From Bacteroidota bacterium (GTDB lineage Bacteria; Bacteroidota; Bacteroidia; AKYH767-A; 2013-40CM-41-45), in NCBI GenBank assembly GCA_003389385.1, contig QQVM01000017.1:260443-324442 (forward strand): 64,000 bases of DNA, written 5' to 3'. Shown here piece after piece: positions 42,610 through 50,970 of the stretch. Each line of letters opens with the position of its first letter. The stretch's first letter is position 1. Position numbers and translations under genes: made by a program. The notes below the pieces were generated by a model. It was not told the DNA's origin and made no database searches. It saw only the letters and a list, made by a program, of their open reading frames with translations.

Positions 42610-43554
42610 ATGAAAGTAACAGTAGTGGGTGCGGGAAATGTCGGTGCAACTTGTGCGGATGTGATCGCCCGCCGGGAATTTGTTCATGAAGTGGTCCTTC
42701 TTGACATCAAAGAAGGAATTGCTGAAGGAAAGTCACTTGACATGTGGCAGACAGCTCCGATCAATCTTTATGATACTAGGATGTATGGCTCCACGAATGA
42801 TTATGCGAAGACTGCTAACTCTGATGTGGTGGTGATCACATCCGGATTACCGAGAAAGCCGGGCATGTCCAGAGATGATCTGATCGCTACCAATGCAGGG
42901 ATTGTTCGTTCTGTTACGGAAAACATTGTAAAGTATTCACCGGATACAATCATCATCGTTGTTTCAAATCCGCTCGACGTGATGACATATTGTGCATATC
43001 TTACTTCGAAGTTTGATCCGGCGCGTGTTTTCGGAATGGCCGGAATCCTGGATACTGCACGTTACCGTGCCTTCCTGGCCGAAGCAATCAATGTGAGTCC
43101 GAAAGACATTCAGGCAGTGCTTATGGGTGGCCACGGCGATACCATGGTTCCGCTTCCACGTTATACCACAGTTTCCGGAATTCCTGTGACGGAATTAATC
43201 TCCAGGCAGGAACTGGATGCAATTGTTGATCGCACTAAGAAAGGTGGTGGAGAACTTGTTAACCTGATGGGTACTTCCGCATGGTACGCTCCCGGAGCGG
43301 CTGCAGCTCAAATGGTTGAAGCGGTTATCAAAGATCAGAAAAGGATATTCCCTTGTTGCGCATGGCTGCAGGGTGAATATGGATTAAAAGATATTTATCT
43401 GGGAGTGCCGGTGAAACTTGGCCGTAAGGGAATAGAACAGATTATCGAACTTAAACTTAATAAGGATGAAATGGAACTGTTGAACGGTTCCGCTAAAGCT
43501 GTGAAGGAAGTCATGGAAGTTCTGGATGGGATGAATCAGCCAGCATCTAAATAA
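42610..43554 (+). CDS. mdh: Malate dehydrogenase
   Basis: The 314-residue NAD-dependent enzyme oxidises malate to oxaloacetate in the TCA cycle. The Rossmann motif GAGNVG is at 7-12, the NAD-binding acidic residue follows strand two (LLDIKEG), the mobile loop is GLPRKPGMSRDDL, VSNPLDVMTY follows, and the catalytic His175 sits in MGGHGDTMVPL. Sequence and length match the LDH-like bacterial MDH class (MDH3). It stands alone with a terminator directly after it. Confidence 0.95.
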   Translation: MKVTVVGAGNVGATCADVIARREFVHEVVLLDIKEGIAEGKSLDMWQTAPINLYDTRMYGSTNDYAKTANSDVVVITSGLPRKPGMSRDDLIATNAGIVRSVTENIVKYSPDTIIIVVSNPLDVMTYCAYLTSKFDPARVFGMAGILDTARYRAFLAEAINVSPKDIQAVLMGGHGDTMVPLPRYTTVSGIPVTELISRQELDAIVDRTKKGGGELVNLMGTSAWYAPGAAAAQMVEAVIKDQKRIFPCCAWLQGEYGLKDIYLGVPVKLGRKGIEQIIELKLNKDEMELLNGSAKAVKEVMEVLDGMNQPASK

Positions 43555-43607: not shown

Positions 43608-44045
43608 ATGAAAAAAATAATTCTGCCATTGAAGATCCGGCTGATTGAAGACGATGGATGTCATATTACCCTTTGCGCTGAAATAAACGGAAAGAATGCC
43701 GAGCTTCTTGTAGATACAGGGGCATCAAGAACAGTTTTCGATCTGGAAAGAATAAAAGCATTTGTCAGTGCATCGGATTTTAAGCCCCATCATAAATTAT
43801 CAACCGGACTCGGCACAAATTCCATGGAAACGCAGGCTGTAATGATTGAGTCACTTACTCTGGGTGAATTGCTTATTTCAAATCATGAAGCAATCCTTCT
43901 TGATCTCAGACATGTGAATGAATCTTATTCTCAGCTGGAGCTTCCGGAGATTGACGGTGTGATCGGAAGCGATATTCTGCTTGCACACAAGGCAATTATT
44001 GATTTCGCAAAAAGGAAGATTACTTTTTATATTGAACAGGACTAG
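43608..44045 (+). CDS. Retropepsin-like aspartic protease domain protein
   Basis: The 145-residue protein is one retroviral-type aspartic protease lobe: NGKNAELLVDTGASRTVFD with catalytic-type Asp36-Thr-Gly, a flap-like stretch, and a second signature GVIGSDILLAHKAIIDFAKRKI near the end. Such single-lobe proteins act as dimers. No signal peptide or membrane segment is visible, so it is probably cytoplasmic. Substrates of bacterial homologues are largely unknown. The gene starts 6 bp after the mdh terminator and its end overlaps the convergent DCC gene by 4 bp, so no terminator fits between them. Confidence 0.8.
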   Translation: MKKIILPLKIRLIEDDGCHITLCAEINGKNAELLVDTGASRTVFDLERIKAFVSASDFKPHHKLSTGLGTNSMETQAVMIESLTLGELLISNHEAILLDLRHVNESYSQLELPEIDGVIGSDILLAHKAIIDFAKRKITFYIEQD

Positions 44046-44443
44046 GTTAAAAATTTCGAGCGAATTTTTTTATCCAGAGAACAATATTTAGCAGTCCCGA
44101 ATATCTTATAACGATTGTTGGCAACGATACGGTATATTTTTTCTCTTATTGAAGTCGGCATAATACCGTACGTTTTTCGTAGGAATGAAACGCCATTCAG
44201 TTTCTTCAGAATTGCCATTACTGCATTTGAACCTGAGTAATACTGATTATCTTCAATCATGATAATTGACTCCAAGCTGATTCCAGACATGCCGTACTTC
44301 GCCAGGATTATTCTGCCATGTTCAGACTGAAGTCCGGTTATTCTGAATTCATCTTGTTTGTCATAACGGGCAATCCATACAGCCAGCCGGTTGCATAATG
44401 CGCACTCATCATCTATCAGGATAAATGCGTGCGATGATTTCAT
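44042..44443 (-). CDS. DCC-family (DUF393) thiol-disulfide oxidoreductase-like protein
   Basis: The 133-residue protein has the DCC motif near its start: IDDECALCNRLAVWI, DxxCxxC at ~12-18. It ends with NRYKIFGTAKYC, also typical of DUF393. The family is predicted to have a thioredoxin-like fold with a redox CXXC; biochemical roles are not settled. No signal peptide is present. Its ATG overlaps the preceding stop by one base (TAATG), so it is the last, translationally coupled gene of the 44-49.5 kb operon. The coupling hints at a redox role for that system, which is inference. Confidence 0.82.
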   Translation of the reverse strand: MKSSHAFILIDDECALCNRLAVWIARYDKQDEFRITGLQSEHGRIILAKYGMSGISLESIIMIEDNQYYSGSNAVMAILKKLNGVSFLRKTYGIMPTSIREKIYRIVANNRYKIFGTAKYCSLDKKIRSKFLT

Positions 44444-45924
44444 TACTTTTTGTATTCGACAAAATATGGAAAAGTGAGCAGTTCATTCCGGTAAACAAAA
44501 CTTGATCCATCGGGCTGGGTTTTCCTGTATAGCGAGAGATTGCTCATATTTATTGCAGTCATATATCCGTTTCTTCCTCCACATCCGGTAGAGTGGTGTG
44601 GCGTGGGACCGTTACTGTCAGAATTCAGGTGAGCTACATAAACAATGTCTTTATCGTCGTTCACTGCAATGCCATGTGGCTGATATCCTGTATAGACTGA
44701 AGTGATCAAAGAATTTGTCTGATAATTTATCACATATACATTACCTTTCCTGTTTGTTCCGGACGGGTCATCGGTGCAGGAAATAAAAAGATAGGGACGG
44801 GTAGAAGATATGCTGAACTCTTGTGGACGATGGCCTACAGGTATAATGCCTAACAGACTGTCGTTTGCCGTGCGGAAAATCCTTACTTCATTGCTTGCCT
44901 GACAACTAACGAAATACTTCTGTCCGTCAGGACTCAGAATCATTTCATGTGCATCATATCTCGACGCAGTTGTTTTACTTTCTCCCGGCTGCAGTATTAC
45001 AGGATCATAATTGTAAAATACATTGCTTATATCCACCTTATTGACAAAGTTGCCGAGTTGAGAAGTCAGATACAGGTAATTTCCGTCCGGCGTGATAAAT
45101 CCTCCATGTGGAAACTCAGGAAAAATGCTTGTTTCTACTACCATATTCTCCAGATCAATGACAGTTGTTTTCTGAAGGAGAGTAGCACTTACAAATCCTT
45201 TTTTACCGTCAGGCGTGATGATAATTGTGTTCCAGTCTCCTGTGCCGATATTAACAGTGCCTACAGGTGTATCATCTTCAGTTCGGAATTTCTGAATGAT
45301 TTTTCCGTTAAAGAAAACTACATACCAGTACCTTCCGTCAGGAGATAATCTGACCATGTGTGGCGCTTCTGTATTTTCAGGGCTGATGCCAACTGATACG
45401 TACTTCATAATATTACCGCTCTCTGCGTCGATTACCGCAACCTGGTCGCAACCCTGCATGCATATGTATGCTTTTTTTCTTGAAGCTCCGTCAGGATATC
45501 TCAACTCACCTGATTTGTTACGTCCACCGTTGGCAATCCAGTTTACCAATGTCTGATACTCGGCACTACTCAAAGCTTCAGCTCCTATCGGCATTCTCGG
45601 TTCAAGAGTCGGACCTAATGATGTGTCTGAATTGACAAAATACAACAGGAAACTGTAGTCTGTACTGAATGGAATTACACTGCTTCCGCTTCTGCCGCCA
45701 GCATACATACTTTCCCAGGAACTGAAATCAAGTCCGCCGGCATTCTGGTAACTGATGTTGTTGTGACATCCTGCGGTTGCGCACTTGGTAGTGATGATTG
45801 CGGAAACTTCAGATGGGAAATTGCTTTCAGGGATCAATTCCTGCTTGTCATAGGTGCATGAGAATTGTAACAATGCTGTAATTGCAAGTACAATCAATGT
45901 AAATGAATTTTTTATTGCATTCAT
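44443..45924 (-). CDS. Cytochrome c-domain / YncE-like beta-propeller lipoprotein
   Basis: The 493-residue protein is a lipoprotein (lipobox FSC23). An N-terminal cytochrome c-like domain (~35-135) has the attachment site C48-x4-C53-H54 (CATAGCH), one step longer than the canonical CxxCH, and a plausible Met111 axial ligand in EPRMPIGAEALS, followed by the usual helix YQTLVNWIANGG. A seven-bladed-type YVTN/YncE propeller fills ~150-480 (AYICMQGCDQVAVIDAESG, RLSPDGRYWYVVFFNG, FVSCQASNEVRIFRT). It overlaps the upstream lipoprotein gene by 4 bp and the DCC gene by 1 bp. An electron-transfer role at the outer membrane or periplasm is likely; the donor and acceptor are unknown. Confidence 0.83.
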   Translation of the reverse strand: MNAIKNSFTLIVLAITALLQFSCTYDKQELIPESNFPSEVSAIITTKCATAGCHNNISYQNAGGLDFSSWESMYAGGRSGSSVIPFSTDYSFLLYFVNSDTSLGPTLEPRMPIGAEALSSAEYQTLVNWIANGGRNKSGELRYPDGASRKKAYICMQGCDQVAVIDAESGNIMKYVSVGISPENTEAPHMVRLSPDGRYWYVVFFNGKIIQKFRTEDDTPVGTVNIGTGDWNTIIITPDGKKGFVSATLLQKTTVIDLENMVVETSIFPEFPHGGFITPDGNYLYLTSQLGNFVNKVDISNVFYNYDPVILQPGESKTTASRYDAHEMILSPDGQKYFVSCQASNEVRIFRTANDSLLGIIPVGHRPQEFSISSTRPYLFISCTDDPSGTNRKGNVYVINYQTNSLITSVYTGYQPHGIAVNDDKDIVYVAHLNSDSNGPTPHHSTGCGGRNGYMTAINMSNLSLYRKTQPDGSSFVYRNELLTFPYFVEYKK

Positions 45925-46322
45925 TCTCCGGCCATCAATAGGATTGAAGTTTTATTTCCGCTGTCACCTGATAATGTTATCGGCACATAAGCCCTTACAT
46001 TCGCCCCAAACCAGGCATCATAACCGCTGGCATACAAGTAGTAATTTCCAGGATAAAGATTTTCAAACAGAACCGTGCCATATGAATCGCTCAGTAATTT
46101 AAATTCGTACAAAGTGCTGTCATAGCCGGGGAATTCCACTGCATTTCTTTTCAGATAAACCCAAACGCCTGGAACTTCCCATGTGTGATGCACCACTTTG
46201 GCTTCAAGCATCAGATTTCCGGGAACTACAACTCCTTCATCTTTCCTGCGTTCAGATTTTTCACACGAGAAAATAATCTGTGCAAGAATGGCTAAAAGAA
46301 TAAAACCACGGAAACCAATCAT
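45921..46322 (-). CDS. Small lipoprotein with His-His motif, paralogue of its upstream neighbour
   Basis: The 133-residue protein has a lipoprotein signal (IIFSC20). The mature part is beta-rich and aligns with the 46319-46732 product: VHH at 44-46, a V-W/Y-I/L-K-x-NA stretch, then GTVLFENLYPGNYYLYASGYDAWFG and VRAYVPI. The shared GxYYxYASG(W/Y)D block looks like a carboxypeptidase-regulatory or transthyretin-like fold. The adjacent His pair at identical residue numbers 45-46 in both proteins suggests metal binding. I do not recognise a named family. Both ends overlap neighbours by 4 bp, showing tight coupling between its paralogue and the cytochrome-propeller gene. Confidence 0.75.
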   Translation of the reverse strand: MIGFRGFILLAILAQIIFSCEKSERRKDEGVVVPGNLMLEAKVVHHTWEVPGVWVYLKRNAVEFPGYDSTLYEFKLLSDSYGTVLFENLYPGNYYLYASGYDAWFGANVRAYVPITLSGDSGNKTSILLMAGE

Positions 46323-46732
46323 TCAGTTACAAATATTTCCAATGGAATTTCTCCCGTTCCCTGATTAAATGATAATGATCTTCCGCCTCTTACAACTTCA
46401 GAAATATTTGAATCCCATCCAGAGGCGTAGAAGTAATAATCTCCGCATTTTAGGCCGTTTATATGCACATGGTCTTCGCCAAATTCACCGATGAACCTGG
46501 CATCATATCCACTAGGAGCACTAGCCCAGTCTATAGCGTTGTATTTAATCCAGACAGTGTCTGGCCTCAAGCTGTCATTCGGAATCAGCACATCGTGATG
46601 CAAAAGTCTTGCAGTAACATTGACACCGCCGCCGCTTCCTGCTTCACATTTATTTTCTTTTTTACAAGATGAAAGTGAAAGAAAAAAAATACTTGCTCCT
46701 ATAATGGAGAGAACCCCCAAATTTCTATTCAT
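46319..46732 (-). CDS. Small lipoprotein with His-His motif, first of a paralogous pair
   Basis: The 137-residue protein has a lipoprotein signal (LSLSSC23) and a short Lys/Cys/Gly-rich linker before the folded part, which matches its downstream paralogue: LLHH at 43-46, VWIKYNAIDW, then GLKCGDYYFYASGWDS and VVRGGRSLSF. An extra Cys29 lies just after the linker, and Cys in GLKCG is absent from the paralogue. No named family is recognised. The gene begins 105 bp after the TonB receptor stop, and a minus-strand -7 element in that gap could start a separate transcript. Confidence 0.75.
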   Translation of the reverse strand: MNRNLGVLSIIGASIFFLSLSSCKKENKCEAGSGGGVNVTARLLHHDVLIPNDSLRPDTVWIKYNAIDWASAPSGYDARFIGEFGEDHVHINGLKCGDYYFYASGWDSNISEVVRGGRSLSFNQGTGEIPLEIFVTE

Positions 46733-46774
46733 AATTTTAATTTGATTTATTGATTATAACACTTGACTGAATTA

Positions 46775-46782
46775 CAAAGTTA
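46775..46782 (-). promoter_or_regulatory. Possible -7 element before the lipoprotein-cytochrome genes
   Basis: On the minus strand this reads TAACTTTG, matching TAnnTTTG, 42 bp before the 46732 start codon and inside the 105-bp gap after the TonB receptor gene. No TTTG -33 at the usual spacing is seen. Confidence 0.35.
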
Positions 46783-46837
46783 TCCAATTATTAAGGTATT
46801 TGCGGTCGAAATTCTGTCAAATTTTACAATTCACCAC

Positions 46838-49138
46838 TCATTTCGGATTTTTTATTCCAAAAGGAAGGCTTATACCTGCGGTGATGTTGATTCCCTGTTC
46901 CATGATTCCGGCAGCCTTAAGCCTGCTCAGATGATCATAATATGCTTTGTCCAATAGGTTGTTCACGCTAATAAACATGTTCATTTCCTGATTCGATAGT
47001 TTAATATTTGCTCCTGCAGATAAATTGATTACTGCTGCACCTGGTGTAATTGTTTCGAATTGGTCTATTTTTTTTTGCTTTAACCGGGAGTGAACTCCAA
47101 GCTTTACATAGGGATCACTTATTTTTTTCTTTTTATCGGTATGGATGTCATAACGCAGTTCATTAACAATAGTGAGTGGCGGAATGTAGGGGAGTGACAT
47201 GCCGATGTCTGTATTCCTGCCATCTACGAAGGAAAGTGTGTTTTCAAAGTGAATATCTTCGTGCGGATGAAAATCGAGTGTGAATTCAAATCCTTTCATT
47301 TCGACAGTGCCCTGAACGTATTGGAATCTGGGGAGTTCTTCCCCGTCTATAATAATAACTTCATTTCCTTCATTGCGTGCATAAATAAAGTTGTTGATTC
47401 TGTTGGCAAAGAGATCAGCAGCGATGCTGATGTGTTCACTGTCATAGGAAAAACCAATATCAGCCTGAACTGATGTTTCCGCTTTCAGAGTAGGATTTCC
47501 GGTTTCAAATCTGTATAAACCTTCGTGAATTCCGTTTGCGGTCAGTTCAGAGATATTCGGAGCCCTGTAGCCACGACTCAAATTCAGGCGCATACTTAAC
47601 TTTTCAGAAAGTGAATAGCTTAAGCCTGCTGCAGCACTGAAGTTTCCGAAATTAAATGTTTGCTTAAGAAAAATTGCAGCGGAATCCTCAACATGCGCAG
47701 CGCTTTCCATTGTCCGAGTATCATATCTTAATCCTGCATTGATTGAAGTTTTCGAATAAGACTTTTTAATATTGAAATAAACACCGGCATCCTGAAGATC
47801 GTAATCAGGAATTAATAGTTCTTCACCGGAATTTTTATTTTCCTGAATCATTCCTGAAATGCCTATTGCTGTTGAAATTGAATTGCGCTCAGGAAAGTGA
47901 AGTCGCACATCAGCAGTCGCAGTGCGCAGGTTCATCCCCAGCTCAGCTTCACTCTCTTCACTTTCGTATTCCTCACGGATGTTTTCCTGGATGCCTGCAT
48001 TTACCCTTAACTGGTTTTTTCCAAGAATGAAATTACTTACTGAACTGAGCTTTCTGTGTTTTATATCCTGGAATGGAGTAAAAATATCTCTTGATAGTAG
48101 TTCACTTTCAGTTGCCGGTAATCCTTCATGATTGAGTAGCCTGGAGCTTACTGTGTCTCTTTCTCCTTCAGGAATTCCAGCCTTGGATTTCCACCTGGAA
48201 AAGTGAAGGTGGGAGAACCCCCAGGATTTGTGCATGCCAATCATAGCGTCAGAATAATATTCCCTGAAACCTGAATTATACACCCTCTCTGCAGGAGTTT
48301 TATATGAAATAGCATTCTTCAAAAAATGCCTTGTTCTCCAAATGAAGCCGCTGTGGGAGCCTTCAGCCATGACTGACCCTGATGCATTCCTGTTATTGGA
48401 TGAATATTGCGAAATGACTTCTCCTCTGACTGAGCCATCAGGGGCCGGAATCGGTTCGAGGACATTGATAACTCCTCCTAAGGCATCTGAGCCATATAAG
48501 AGGCTGGATGGCCCTTTAAGAATTTCAATTCTGTCCACAGAAAACTTGTCAATTTCCAGTCCGTGTTCATCTCCCCACTGCTGGCCTTCTTGTCTGACCC
48601 CGTTATTGATAACCAAAACCCTGTTGAATGAAAGGCCCCGGATGACCGGCTTAGCAATTCCGGACCCTGTACTGATAGCGGCGACTCCTGGAATTTGAGA
48701 AAGCGCAGTACTCAAATTGTCGCCCGGTGAAGTAATTATTTTCATTTTTTCTACCGGTGTGACAGGCACACTGCTTATCTTTGGATCAGTTGTAAAAGGA
48801 CTGCCAGTAACAATCACTTCTTTCTTTTCAATTGCCGTCATTTGTAAAAAGAAATCCTGAGTGCTGATATAATTCAAGTCAATTAGAACGCTGACGGATG
48901 CGTATCCAAGCATTTTTACCTGAACTAAAAATTTTCCTTTTGGTAATTTTGAAAGATAGTATTTTCCTTCCTGGTTTGTTATTGTTCCTGTTTTCAGGTC
49001 AGGAATATAAATAACAGCTCCCGGCAAACTTTCTCTGGAATTTAAGTCGTATATATAACCCTGGAGGGACTGTCCCATGACAGATTGTATTAATAGGAGC
49101 TTTGCTATAAGCAAATACTCTTTTATAGAGAATTTCAT
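46838..49138 (-). CDS. TonB-dependent receptor (ZnuD-like), second metal-type locus
   Basis: The 766-residue receptor has a signal peptide (cleavage near VMGQS, residue ~23), a carboxypeptidase-like domain at ~23-110 (LQGYIYDLNSRESLPGAVIY), a plug at ~125-235 (SRIPGVAAIST-type GSGIAKPVIRGLSFNRVLVINNGVRQ, then IEILKGPSSLLYGSDALGGVINV), and a barrel ending in the aromatic-free ISLPFGIKNPK. The plug resembles receptors of the ZnuD type for zinc or other metals. Upstream by 82 bp is a His-rich small protein, and downstream lie the His-His lipoproteins. The substrate is probably a metal ion or complex, by inference. No TonB or inner-membrane importer is present in the window. Confidence 0.88.
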   Translation of the reverse strand: MKFSIKEYLLIAKLLLIQSVMGQSLQGYIYDLNSRESLPGAVIYIPDLKTGTITNQEGKYYLSKLPKGKFLVQVKMLGYASVSVLIDLNYISTQDFFLQMTAIEKKEVIVTGSPFTTDPKISSVPVTPVEKMKIITSPGDNLSTALSQIPGVAAISTGSGIAKPVIRGLSFNRVLVINNGVRQEGQQWGDEHGLEIDKFSVDRIEILKGPSSLLYGSDALGGVINVLEPIPAPDGSVRGEVISQYSSNNRNASGSVMAEGSHSGFIWRTRHFLKNAISYKTPAERVYNSGFREYYSDAMIGMHKSWGFSHLHFSRWKSKAGIPEGERDTVSSRLLNHEGLPATESELLSRDIFTPFQDIKHRKLSSVSNFILGKNQLRVNAGIQENIREEYESEESEAELGMNLRTATADVRLHFPERNSISTAIGISGMIQENKNSGEELLIPDYDLQDAGVYFNIKKSYSKTSINAGLRYDTRTMESAAHVEDSAAIFLKQTFNFGNFSAAAGLSYSLSEKLSMRLNLSRGYRAPNISELTANGIHEGLYRFETGNPTLKAETSVQADIGFSYDSEHISIAADLFANRINNFIYARNEGNEVIIIDGEELPRFQYVQGTVEMKGFEFTLDFHPHEDIHFENTLSFVDGRNTDIGMSLPYIPPLTIVNELRYDIHTDKKKKISDPYVKLGVHSRLKQKKIDQFETITPGAAVINLSAGANIKLSNQEMNMFISVNNLLDKAYYDHLSRLKAAGIMEQGINITAGISLPFGIKNPK

Positions 49139-49220
49139 TATATGTTAATTTTAAGCAGTTAATAATAGCAAGAACGGGATACTGATCAGTATACCATCTG
49201 CAGGAGTAAAAAAGAAATGC

Positions 49221-49544
49221 TCAAACTACGGGAGGGCCGCGCAGGTTTATTCTGCCTCTATTTTCGCTTAATGTAATGGATTGCCTTTGCTTGTAGTATT
49301 CAGGCAATACGATTCTATCAGGAAGTTCAAAGAAAAAGTATGAAGGTTTCATGCTGCTGATTGCAAATTGCAATAGCTCGCAATGATCATGCTGCAGACT
49401 AATTTGAGTCTCACCTGAGGGAGTGCAATGCCCGTGCTCCTGATGTGCATGATGAACCAGGCCGTGCAGGTAAATTTCGGGAACCAAATTGGTTACCAAT
49501 ACAGCAAAAAGAAGCCATGCAATGTGTAGCTTTAGCCGGTTCAT
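49221..49544 (-). CDS. Small His-rich membrane-linked protein heading the TonB operon
   Basis: The 107-residue protein has an N-terminal hydrophobic segment (~8-24, probably a signal anchor) and a dense ligand cluster directly after it: His27, His31, His32, His34, His37, His39, Cys40, then H52-x-H54-C55. The C-terminus ends RGPPVV. In position and plan it parallels the small Cys-rich protein before the other TonB receptor, which also has a GPP near its end. The cluster suggests zinc or copper binding on the periplasmic side. No named family is recognised with certainty. It is followed by the TonB receptor gene, 82 bp downstream. Confidence 0.65.
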   Translation of the reverse strand: MNRLKLHIAWLLFAVLVTNLVPEIYLHGLVHHAHQEHGHCTPSGETQISLQHDHCELLQFAISSMKPSYFFFELPDRIVLPEYYKQRQSITLSENRGRINLRGPPVV

Positions 49545-49548
49545 GCTG

Positions 49549-49556
49549 CAAATATA
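49549..49556 (-). promoter_or_regulatory. -7 element abutting the His-rich protein gene
   Basis: On the minus strand this reads TATATTTG, matching TAnnTTTG, with only CAGC between it and the ATG at 49544. No clear -33. Transcription would begin at or near the start codon. Confidence 0.4.
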
Positions 49557-49734
49557 GAATTTTATAAAGAAACGGAGTATTACACTATATCGGGGCTTAA
49601 ACTCCGAATATGATTTCTGGCTATTATAAAAAATTACTACGTGACGGAATTTGCTTTTTTGAATGTCAATAGTCAGTTTACTTTGTATTCACGATCTCAG
49701 GTTTGAATTAAAATCTAATTGAATTTTACTTCAC

Positions 49735-50970
49735 TCAATTTTTAATGAACGAGCCATCGTACACTTCTCCTTTATCAGAAATTAATTCAATGAAATACAT
49801 TCCATCTGCAATCTGATCCACGGAAATCAAATTAGTATTTTTGGATAATGTATTTTCGAGAATTAGTTTACCCGACCGGTCAAAAATTCTGTACGATTCA
49901 AAACTCAAGTTTTTTATTGAGCCTCTTACACGAATAAAATCAGAAGTGGGATTCGGATAAACTTCTATATCCTCAAAATTTGGAGAAGCTGTTCTCATCG
50001 TGATACCATTAGGCAGTTTCCAAAAATCTCGAAGAAGAGTGGCATTTGAAATAACAAAACTGTTATTCCCGCCTCCTCCAAGATAAATATCGTTTGATAT
50101 TGCAAAGCCACCTGCATAGCCCCTGGGAATTCCGGGAAATGTTCCTATTAATATCCAGGAATCACTCGAAGGACTGTATTTAAAGCATGTATTCATTGGG
50201 TTATGTTCTATATTTTGATATTGATAGTAATATCCACAGAGAACATAAGCATCGGAACTCGTACTAATAGTAGTTGATGCATCAATAGCAATCAAAGGAA
50301 AATCGCTTTTGCGAGTCCAGGTATCGTTTAGAGGATTGTATTCATATAAATCGTTGTAGTTAATTATAGATTGTGCACTGGCACCTAAGCCAATGTATCC
50401 TTTATTGCCTGCAGAGAACCCTACTGCAGTGCTCCTTGGACCACCAGGTAAATCTGCTTTCCTTGTCCATGAATCAGTAGAAGGATCGTATTCATAAAAA
50501 TCCTGAAATGCCGCAGAAGAATGATATCCTGTCCCAACATAACCTTTTGCTCCGATAGAAAATGCTACAGCATTTTGCCTGGGTGATCCGGGGAAACTAG
50601 CCTTTTGAGTCCAAAGATCATTTACAGGATTGTATTCCCAAATGTCATTTAAATTTCCTGAGCCAGATTGGCCGGTGACCACATATCCTTTTCCATTAAT
50701 TACAAATGAAGGTGCGCCATTTCTACCCGGACCTGGAAGGTCTGCTTTTCTGGTCCAGGTATTTGATGCAGGATTAAATTCATACCATTCATTAGTTTTC
50801 TGGCTCAGGCTGTCTATCCCTAATCCCATATAACCTTTGCCGTTTATGGAAAAATAGGATACTCCTGATATTCCTCGTCCCGGAAAGTTTTGAAGTCTTA
50901 ACCAGTTATATTGTGCATTCGTAACTGATATTGTATTGCAAAAAAAGAGCAACAAGATGATTTTTTTCAT
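49735..50970 (-). CDS. Kelch-repeat protein with T9SS type A sorting domain
   Basis: The 411-residue protein has a signal peptide (cleavage near VTNAQ, residue ~20). Six or so Kelch repeats of ~50 residues run from ~25 to 320, each with a hydrophobic-GG/GKGYVG strand and WTRKADLPG-type ending (for example NDIWEYNPVNDLWTQKASFPG). A propeller fold follows. The last ~75 residues are a type A sorting domain: YPNPTSDFIRV, YRIFDRSGKLILEN, DGMYFIELIS and SFIKN. The protein is exported by T9SS; its binding partner is unknown. It is flanked by ~190-bp gaps on both sides in which I see no other gene. Confidence 0.9.
   Translation of the reverse strand: MKKIILLLFFCNTISVTNAQYNWLRLQNFPGRGISGVSYFSINGKGYMGLGIDSLSQKTNEWYEFNPASNTWTRKADLPGPGRNGAPSFVINGKGYVVTGQSGSGNLNDIWEYNPVNDLWTQKASFPGSPRQNAVAFSIGAKGYVGTGYHSSAAFQDFYEYDPSTDSWTRKADLPGGPRSTAVGFSAGNKGYIGLGASAQSIINYNDLYEYNPLNDTWTRKSDFPLIAIDASTTISTSSDAYVLCGYYYQYQNIEHNPMNTCFKYSPSSDSWILIGTFPGIPRGYAGGFAISNDIYLGGGGNNSFVISNATLLRDFWKLPNGITMRTASPNFEDIEVYPNPTSDFIRVRGSIKNLSFESYRIFDRSGKLILENTLSKNTNLISVDQIADGMYFIELISDKGEVYDGSFIKN

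Follow-up and report, generated by a model that had tools for sequence, protein, structure and literature searches.

What does an operon that joins a small His-rich exported protein and a TonB-dependent receptor (TBDR) to two paralogous lipoproteins, a cytochrome-propeller lipoprotein and a DCC thiol protein do for a Bacteroidota cell, and how is it controlled? The operon lies on the minus strand, from 49544 to 44042, of a 64,000-nucleotide stretch of a Bacteroidota genome (the window, here the whole stretch analysed), and an earlier note on this DNA had read it as a possible metal capture or reduction system at the outer membrane. Our analysis points to an outer-membrane metal-acquisition operon under nascent-peptide control, a reading to which we give a probability of roughly 0.6. 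Capture of metal at the outer membrane, as first proposed, is well supported by the sequences, which combine a candidate regulatory leader, a ZnuD-like receptor with predicted metal ligands and His-His lipoproteins in a conserved order; the main gains over that first reading are the regulatory leader and a linkage to MbnP. The six genes are, from first to last:

49221..49544, minus strand: leader open reading frame (ORF), 107 amino acids (aa); signal sequence, His-rich, putative metal motif and C-terminal arrest motif
46838..49138, minus strand: TonB-dependent receptor, ZnuD-like, 766 aa; ZnuD (4rdr) is the best solved relative
46319..46732, minus strand: His-His lipoprotein a (HHa), 137 aa, predicted beta-sandwich (alignment, AlphaFold)
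45921..46322, minus strand: His-His lipoprotein b (HHb), 133 aa, paralogue of HHa (sequence search, alignment)
44443..45924, minus strand: mono-heme cytochrome c domain fused to a beta-propeller, lipoprotein, 493 aa (alignment, AlphaFold, Foldseek)
44042..44443, minus strand: DCC1-like thiol protein, 133 aa, CxxC at residues 14-17 (PF04134, E 3e-23)

The ORF coordinates confirm the earlier description of six same-strand genes with 4-bp or 1-bp overlaps: the last four (HHa, HHb, cytochrome-propeller and DCC) are joined by overlaps of 4, 4 and 1 bp, and gaps of 82 nt between leader and receptor and of 105 nt between receptor and HHa lie further upstream.

The leader as a candidate arrest peptide

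The first gene encodes a signal sequence, the motif HDHC, 46 further residues and an RGPP motif two residues from the end of the protein, and is preceded by a promoter element:

49549..49556, minus strand: perfect -7 promoter element TATATTTG, 12 nt before the leader ATG (sequence; enrichment at related leaders)
49380..49391, minus strand: HDHC motif, leader residues 52-55, putative metal sensor; RxPP follows after 46 residues, a spacing shared by every HxHC leader among the 30 compared
49230..49241, minus strand: RGPP motif, leader residues 102-105 of 107, putative ribosome-arrest motif (sequence; RGPP/RAPP arrest in other proteins, PMC12992588)

CruR of Bordetella, which senses copper and controls a TonB receptor, has a CXXC motif followed by 45 residues and RAPP three residues from the end (PMC9426467), and ribosome arrest at the RAPP of CruR, and by RGPP in other peptides, has been demonstrated in vitro (PMC12992588). 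The window leader has the CruR-type spacing from metal motif to RAPP/RGPP near the C-terminus (46 residues, against about 45) but HDHC instead of the CXXC copper motif. By its anatomy, as read from the sequence, it is a candidate arrest-peptide leader of the CruR/CutF type that lacks the CXXC motif and the DUF2946 match of CruR itself. The His-rich small protein had previously been counted as part of the metal machinery; this is not borne out, its anatomy being that of a predicted regulator.

A profile made from five leaders and searched in 295 Bacteroidia genomes found relatives in 91 of them. All of the 30 best carry RAPP or RGPP one to six residues from the C-terminus, with CxxC as the metal motif in 23 and HxHC in seven. 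Their spacing to RxPP is 43-45 residues for CxxC and exactly 46 for HxHC; because the profile came from sequences with this layout, similar lengths are favoured, which limits the argument from fixed spacing without removing it. The sequence between the two motifs is unconserved. Across the largest leader set, HxxC and RxPP are 46 or 47 residues apart except in one leader, which has 45, and a single divergent CxxC leader has a spacing of 41. A TonB receptor lies 23-156 nt downstream of 29 of the 30 best leaders and downstream of 66 of 78 in a larger set, where an outer-membrane protein (OMP)-ZnuA-ZnuB operon follows in four cases and a COG0523 GTPase in two. The leaders heading these OMP-ZnuA-ZnuB operons (L214, L232, L236, L240) and COG0523 genes (L212, L238) are CxxC-RxPP members of the same family, which suggests that zinc genes in Bacteroidia may be under nascent-peptide control.

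A perfect TAnnTTTG, which we take to be the Bacteroidota -7 promoter element, is found 12-22 nt before the start codon of 25 of 77 related leaders and at 8 of 175 control starts (P 1e-8); on that assumption, its position suggests that the leader mRNAs may be leaderless or near-leaderless. Zur-, CueR- or Fur-type sites had been put forward as something to look for upstream. The inverted-repeat search before the leader gave one AT-rich pair only (49704-49733), and since this pair is distant from the promoter element it gives no argument for Zur, Fur or CueR binding there. The gap between leader and receptor showed no notable RNA folding (z -1.5), and an Rfam scan of the window gave no RNA family.

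The receptor and the lipoproteins

The receptor has TonB plug and barrel domains (Pfam E 2e-20 and 3e-36), and its closest solved relative is ZnuD (4rdr), with E 3e-29 for the single sequence and 4.8e-55 as a profile, the next best match being 2e-34. The zinc ligands of ZnuD are Asp99, His100, Glu340 and His499 (PMC4557270). Pairing them with the window receptor through a numbering offset of 14, derived by hand from the printed alignment, gives these candidate ligands:

48563..48568, minus strand: E191-H192 (plug apex), aligned with ZnuD Asp99-His100; E in 93% and H in 99% of 73 receptors
47525..47527, minus strand: H538, aligned with ZnuD His499; in 95% of 73 receptors

Among 21 receptors compared, R388 and E390 do not vary; the pairing of E390 with ZnuD Glu340 is uncertain. 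The receptor scores below the NCBIfam cut-off for ZnuD (134.7 against 950 bits) and that for OprC-type copper receptors (TIGR01778, 86.9 against 472 bits), and its top-scoring hidden Markov model (HMM) is TonB-hemin, at 176 bits with a cut-off of 317. Related receptors fall into an EHG class, which includes that of the window and stands alone or with cytochrome/MbnP genes, and an EHAP class, which stands with a different lipoprotein. At about 26 loci (L189, L192, L193, L204, L221, L231 and others) a lipoprotein of ~190-226 aa that has no Pfam match lies downstream of an EHAP-type receptor.

HHa and HHb are distant paralogues (29% identity by search, E 1.7e-4; 24% in the alignment) in which the lipobox Cys, His45-His46 and Asp107 are conserved, and neither has a family in Pfam or NCBIfam. 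The AlphaFold model of HHa (pLDDT 91) is a predicted beta-sandwich, and a Foldseek search with the His-His lipoprotein gave no PDB match with E <1e-3. The DCC protein belongs to the DCC1-like family PF04134 (83.6 bits against a cut-off of 27.8), with C14 and C17 invariant in 10 sequences.

The cytochrome-propeller lipoprotein gave a lactonase/YVTN-type propeller match (E 3e-7), its N-terminal PSCyt1-like cytochrome domain being sub-threshold, and carries a predicted heme site:

45763..45783, minus strand: heme-binding CATAGCH (C48-X4-C53-H54); C48, C53 and H54 invariant in 73/73 sequences

Met111 is likewise invariant in 73/73 relatives; the sequence thus has the covalent heme site and the axial ligand residues of a c-type cytochrome, and heme is predicted. 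Within the propeller, the ring histidines are H189, H273, H326 and H417, conserved in 69 of the 73, and the pair H443-H444, which no sequence lacks; E369 is kept in 68 and N232 in 58. In the AlphaFold model (pLDDT 95), residues 189, 232, 273, 326 and 417 each take second position in the first (innermost) strand of their blade, a placement that would be expected to set them along one side of the central channel. Foldseek matched the model to YVTN proteins, cytochrome cd1, thiocyanate dehydrogenase, NosZ, BtuG and YncE. Identity with L-NosZ (NF052460) was rejected on score, 39 bits being far from the cut-off of 700. The export signal after the lipobox Cys of the cytochrome-propellers is mostly one acidic residue, and therefore surface exposure cannot be claimed. 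From its sequence features, the protein probably acts in metal redox or capture. At L077, L125 and L078 the cytochrome-propeller is joined by small mono-heme lipoproteins of 115-162 aa that share its C-X4-C-H site.

Gene order in relatives and the MbnP/MbnH link

Gene order was compared in 61 genomes, comprising the window's own and its relatives, 42 of which have a His-His lipoprotein and 45 a cytochrome-propeller. One genome of the same genus (G001; L034/L201) keeps the complete order of leader, TBDR, HHa, HHb, cytochrome-propeller, DCC, aspartyl-protease-like gene and malate dehydrogenase-like gene (mdh), and most of the operon order is kept at L035/L075 and L033; HHa, cytochrome-propeller and DCC are also kept together, mostly adjoining mdh, in further families of the order (L050, L054, L055, L056, L069). 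A His-His lipoprotein gene lies within 4 kb of 24 of 50 cytochrome-propeller genes, where the expected fraction is 0.0025 (P 6e-49, a value that takes genes as independent and that kinship makes optimistic), and the clustering is therefore more than chance. A scattered gene order in relatives had been named in the earlier note as the outcome that would overturn its reading; since the order is kept, completely in G001 and partially across the order, that outcome did not arise. A scan of GTDB genomes gave 80 loci, nearly all in Bacteroidota and several of them named Chitinophagaceae or Chitinophagales.

The likeness to MbnP/MbnH loci was at first drawn in logic only. No protein of the window operon matches MbnP (PF20243) or MbnH, but the link is stronger than one of logic: the corresponding operons of relatives contain MbnP, in several cases with a MauG/MbnH-type di-heme protein (L185, L125, L128, L041, L044). 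There are only about two MbnP genes per genome, yet one lies within 4 kb of 12 of 65 His-His lipoprotein genes (expected fraction 0.005, P 5e-16). The arrangements include MbnP-MauG-HHa operons (L041, L043, L045, L046), MbnP-cyt-HH-cytochrome/propeller operons (L125, L128) and a single leader-TBDR-MbnP-MauG-OMP-HHa-cytochrome/propeller operon (L185). Related loci further encode TCSAC-bearing HMA-domain proteins, a Met-rich OMP and a multicopper oxidase. At L044, which is related to the window locus, TBDR-MbnP is headed by a CxxxC leader. CxxxC leaders, which have 64-65 residues to a terminal PP motif in 17/17 cases, resemble in both motifs the copper sensor CutF, which has CxxxC and ends in a proline-rich stretch (PMC9973294). 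This second, CutF-like class (CNGKC, then 64-65 residues to an FHPP-like motif) heads MbnP, MauG, HH and TBDR operons at L036, L041, L043, L044, L045, L046, L053, L059, L060, L064, L077, L092, L104, L111, L112, L116 and L125. The genome that contains the window also has two MbnP-MauG pairs outside the operon, at G000:C3:203928 (L182) and G000:C3:226876 (L183).

Two genes beside the operon recur with it:

43608..44045, plus strand: aspartyl-protease-like gene, convergent, outside the operon, conserved neighbour (Pfam scan; synteny with DCC in relatives)
42610..43554, plus strand: malate dehydrogenase-like gene (mdh), conserved synteny anchor (name from sequence alone)

The 3' ends of the former and of the DCC gene overlap by 4 bp, and the latter adjoins the former, an arrangement conserved across the order. 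The gene immediately upstream of the operon, in the same orientation (49735-50970, minus strand), encodes a Kelch-type propeller that has a type IX secretion tail, and FG-GAP proteins of ~740 aa with such a tail recur beside cytochrome-propeller and leader-TBDR genes (L050, L079, L082, L086, L105, L127, L185, L207 and others).

The metal, rival readings and known systems

We propose that metal would bind the HxHC of the leader during its synthesis and change ribosome arrest at RGPP, and that this switch would cause the receptor and lipoproteins to be made mainly under metal scarcity, as with CruR. The His-His lipoproteins would hold the metal, the cytochrome-propeller would capture it or alter its oxidation state and the TonB receptor would import it. 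Judged from the sequences, the metal has about an even chance of being copper, a little under one chance in three of being zinc and about one in five of being another metal or a chelate. Copper is favoured because the His-His and cytochrome-propeller genes keep company with MbnP, HMA proteins and CutF-like leaders and because one of the proteins is a heme protein, and zinc because of the ZnuD-like receptor and the ZnuAB/COG0523 genes behind some CxxC leaders. The cytochrome-propeller accompanies 6 of 23 HxHC leaders and 1 of 51 CxxC leaders (P 0.003), a difference that, the loci being related, is indicative only, and the CPC-type metal ATPases near four His-His/cytochrome-propeller loci could be copper or zinc pumps.

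Zinc acquisition by the whole operon, with a zinc-sensing arrest leader, a ZnuD-type receptor, zinc-binding His-His lipoproteins and a cytochrome-propeller accessory in another role, is possible but doubtful. ZnuD leads the solved relatives clearly (4.8e-55 against 2e-34), with its ligands conserved, and the leader family heads ZnuA-ZnuB ABC operons (four) and COG0523 genes (two), which are typical of zinc-limitation regulons; all six cases have CxxC leaders, however (HxHC 0/23 against CxxC 6/51, not significant at P 0.17), the His-His/cytochrome-propeller loci have no ZnuA, ZnuB or COG0523 matches but many of MbnP, HMA and CutF-like leaders, and it is not evident what a heme protein would do with zinc. 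We consider it unlikely that the propeller is a copper enzyme of the NosZ/thiocyanate-dehydrogenase type, with a copper cluster in its His-lined channel, electrons arriving via the heme domain and the other genes supplying copper. The conserved ring histidines, the Foldseek matches to thiocyanate dehydrogenase, NosZ and cytochrome cd1 and the weak L-NosZ HMM match would fit such an enzyme, but 39 bits against 700 means no member of that family, and BtuG, YncE and other non-enzymatic propellers are matched as well. Rather improbable is uptake of a siderophore, heme or other chelate with the propeller as a lid handing it to the receptor: the BtuG/XusB plan also pairs a TonB receptor with a propeller lipoprotein (PMC13142918; Foldseek 8ptf, 8ptd, 8blw) and TonB-hemin is the top receptor HMM, whereas the receptor keeps ZnuD-type ion ligands, a heme domain and conserved ring histidines are not described for BtuG or XusB, and the MbnP association also speaks against it. 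That the small leader is an ordinary secreted metal-binding protein, and no regulator, would agree with its histidines and signal sequence, but is made improbable by the fixed 43-46 residue spacing across unconserved sequence, the near-terminal RxPP in the 30 best relatives and its place as first gene.

Several observations weigh against our preferred reading of a metal-acquisition operon under nascent-peptide control. The window leader has no significant Pfam match and does not match DUF2946 (PF11162, the CruR family), its best relative reaching E 0.012, below the cut-off, with 2 of 24 members matched; DUF2946 membership was rejected, the match not being significant. Several cytochrome-propeller loci have no TonB receptor nearby, and the cytochrome-propeller may therefore have a separate role. 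Copper itself is not secured, because some leaders of this family stand before zinc-type genes and the receptor is similar to one for zinc.

A recent survey (EMBO J 2025) found RAPP/RGPP leaders upstream of TonB genes across Gram-negative bacteria, with copper-related ones absent from groups such as Bacteroidota (PMC12992588); the present analysis connects the leader class with particular receptors and metal motifs and with partners of the MbnP type. Outer-membrane copper and zinc import is poorly described in Bacteroidota, and our literature search, made in a limited collection of papers, gave none on this operon in the phylum. The locus offers a directly testable case of nascent-chain metal sensing with His replacing Cys, and points to a heme-propeller lipoprotein, conserved across many Bacteroidota, without known function. 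As a tentative and more speculative extension, HxHC-46-RGPP leaders might stand apart as their own class of nascent-peptide metal sensors, perhaps with the first zinc sensor of this kind among them, while the cytochrome-propeller might be a metal oxidoreductase of a new type, holding its metal in the His ring and either working with MbnP/MbnH or replacing them.

Among known systems, the CruR-BfrG/CrtA-PepSY_TM copper operon of Bordetella (PMC9426467, PMC12914433) likewise opens with a gene for a small exported protein, in which ~45 residues separate a metal motif from a near-terminal RAPP/RGPP, and continues with a TonB receptor, whereas the window, in another phylum, has HxHC for CXXC, a ZnuD-like receptor and, in place of PepSY_TM, His-His and cytochrome-propeller lipoproteins. 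CutF-like leaders, displayed for Bacteroidota among other phyla, are also exported, with a Cys/His metal motif and a proline-rich C-terminus upstream of metal genes (PMC9973294); the window leader is HxHC/RGPP, and the CutF-like CxxxC-65-FHPP class occurs in related MbnP loci but is absent from the window. ZnuD (4rdr; PMC4557270) is the closest solved receptor, its D99/H100 and H499 matched by E191/H192 and H538, but the window receptor lies far below the NCBIfam cut-off and has Glu for Asp99, a CarboxypepD_reg domain and other genomic partners. NosZ, L-NosZ, thiocyanate dehydrogenase and cytochrome cd1 share the propeller fold and a His-lined or heme-linked redox centre, although the window sequence is far below their family cut-offs and its cytochrome domain has C-X4-C-H. 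MbnP/MbnH pairs and methanobactin loci (PMC3621798) are related through the MbnP and MauG/MbnH-type genes that share operons with relatives of the window genes, whereas the window operon has neither MbnP nor MbnH and its cytochrome is mono-heme, not di-heme. BtuBG and XusAB (PMC10404256, PMC13142918) also combine a TonB receptor with a propeller lipoprotein in Bacteroidota, from which the window propeller is set apart by its cytochrome c domain and conserved ring histidines.

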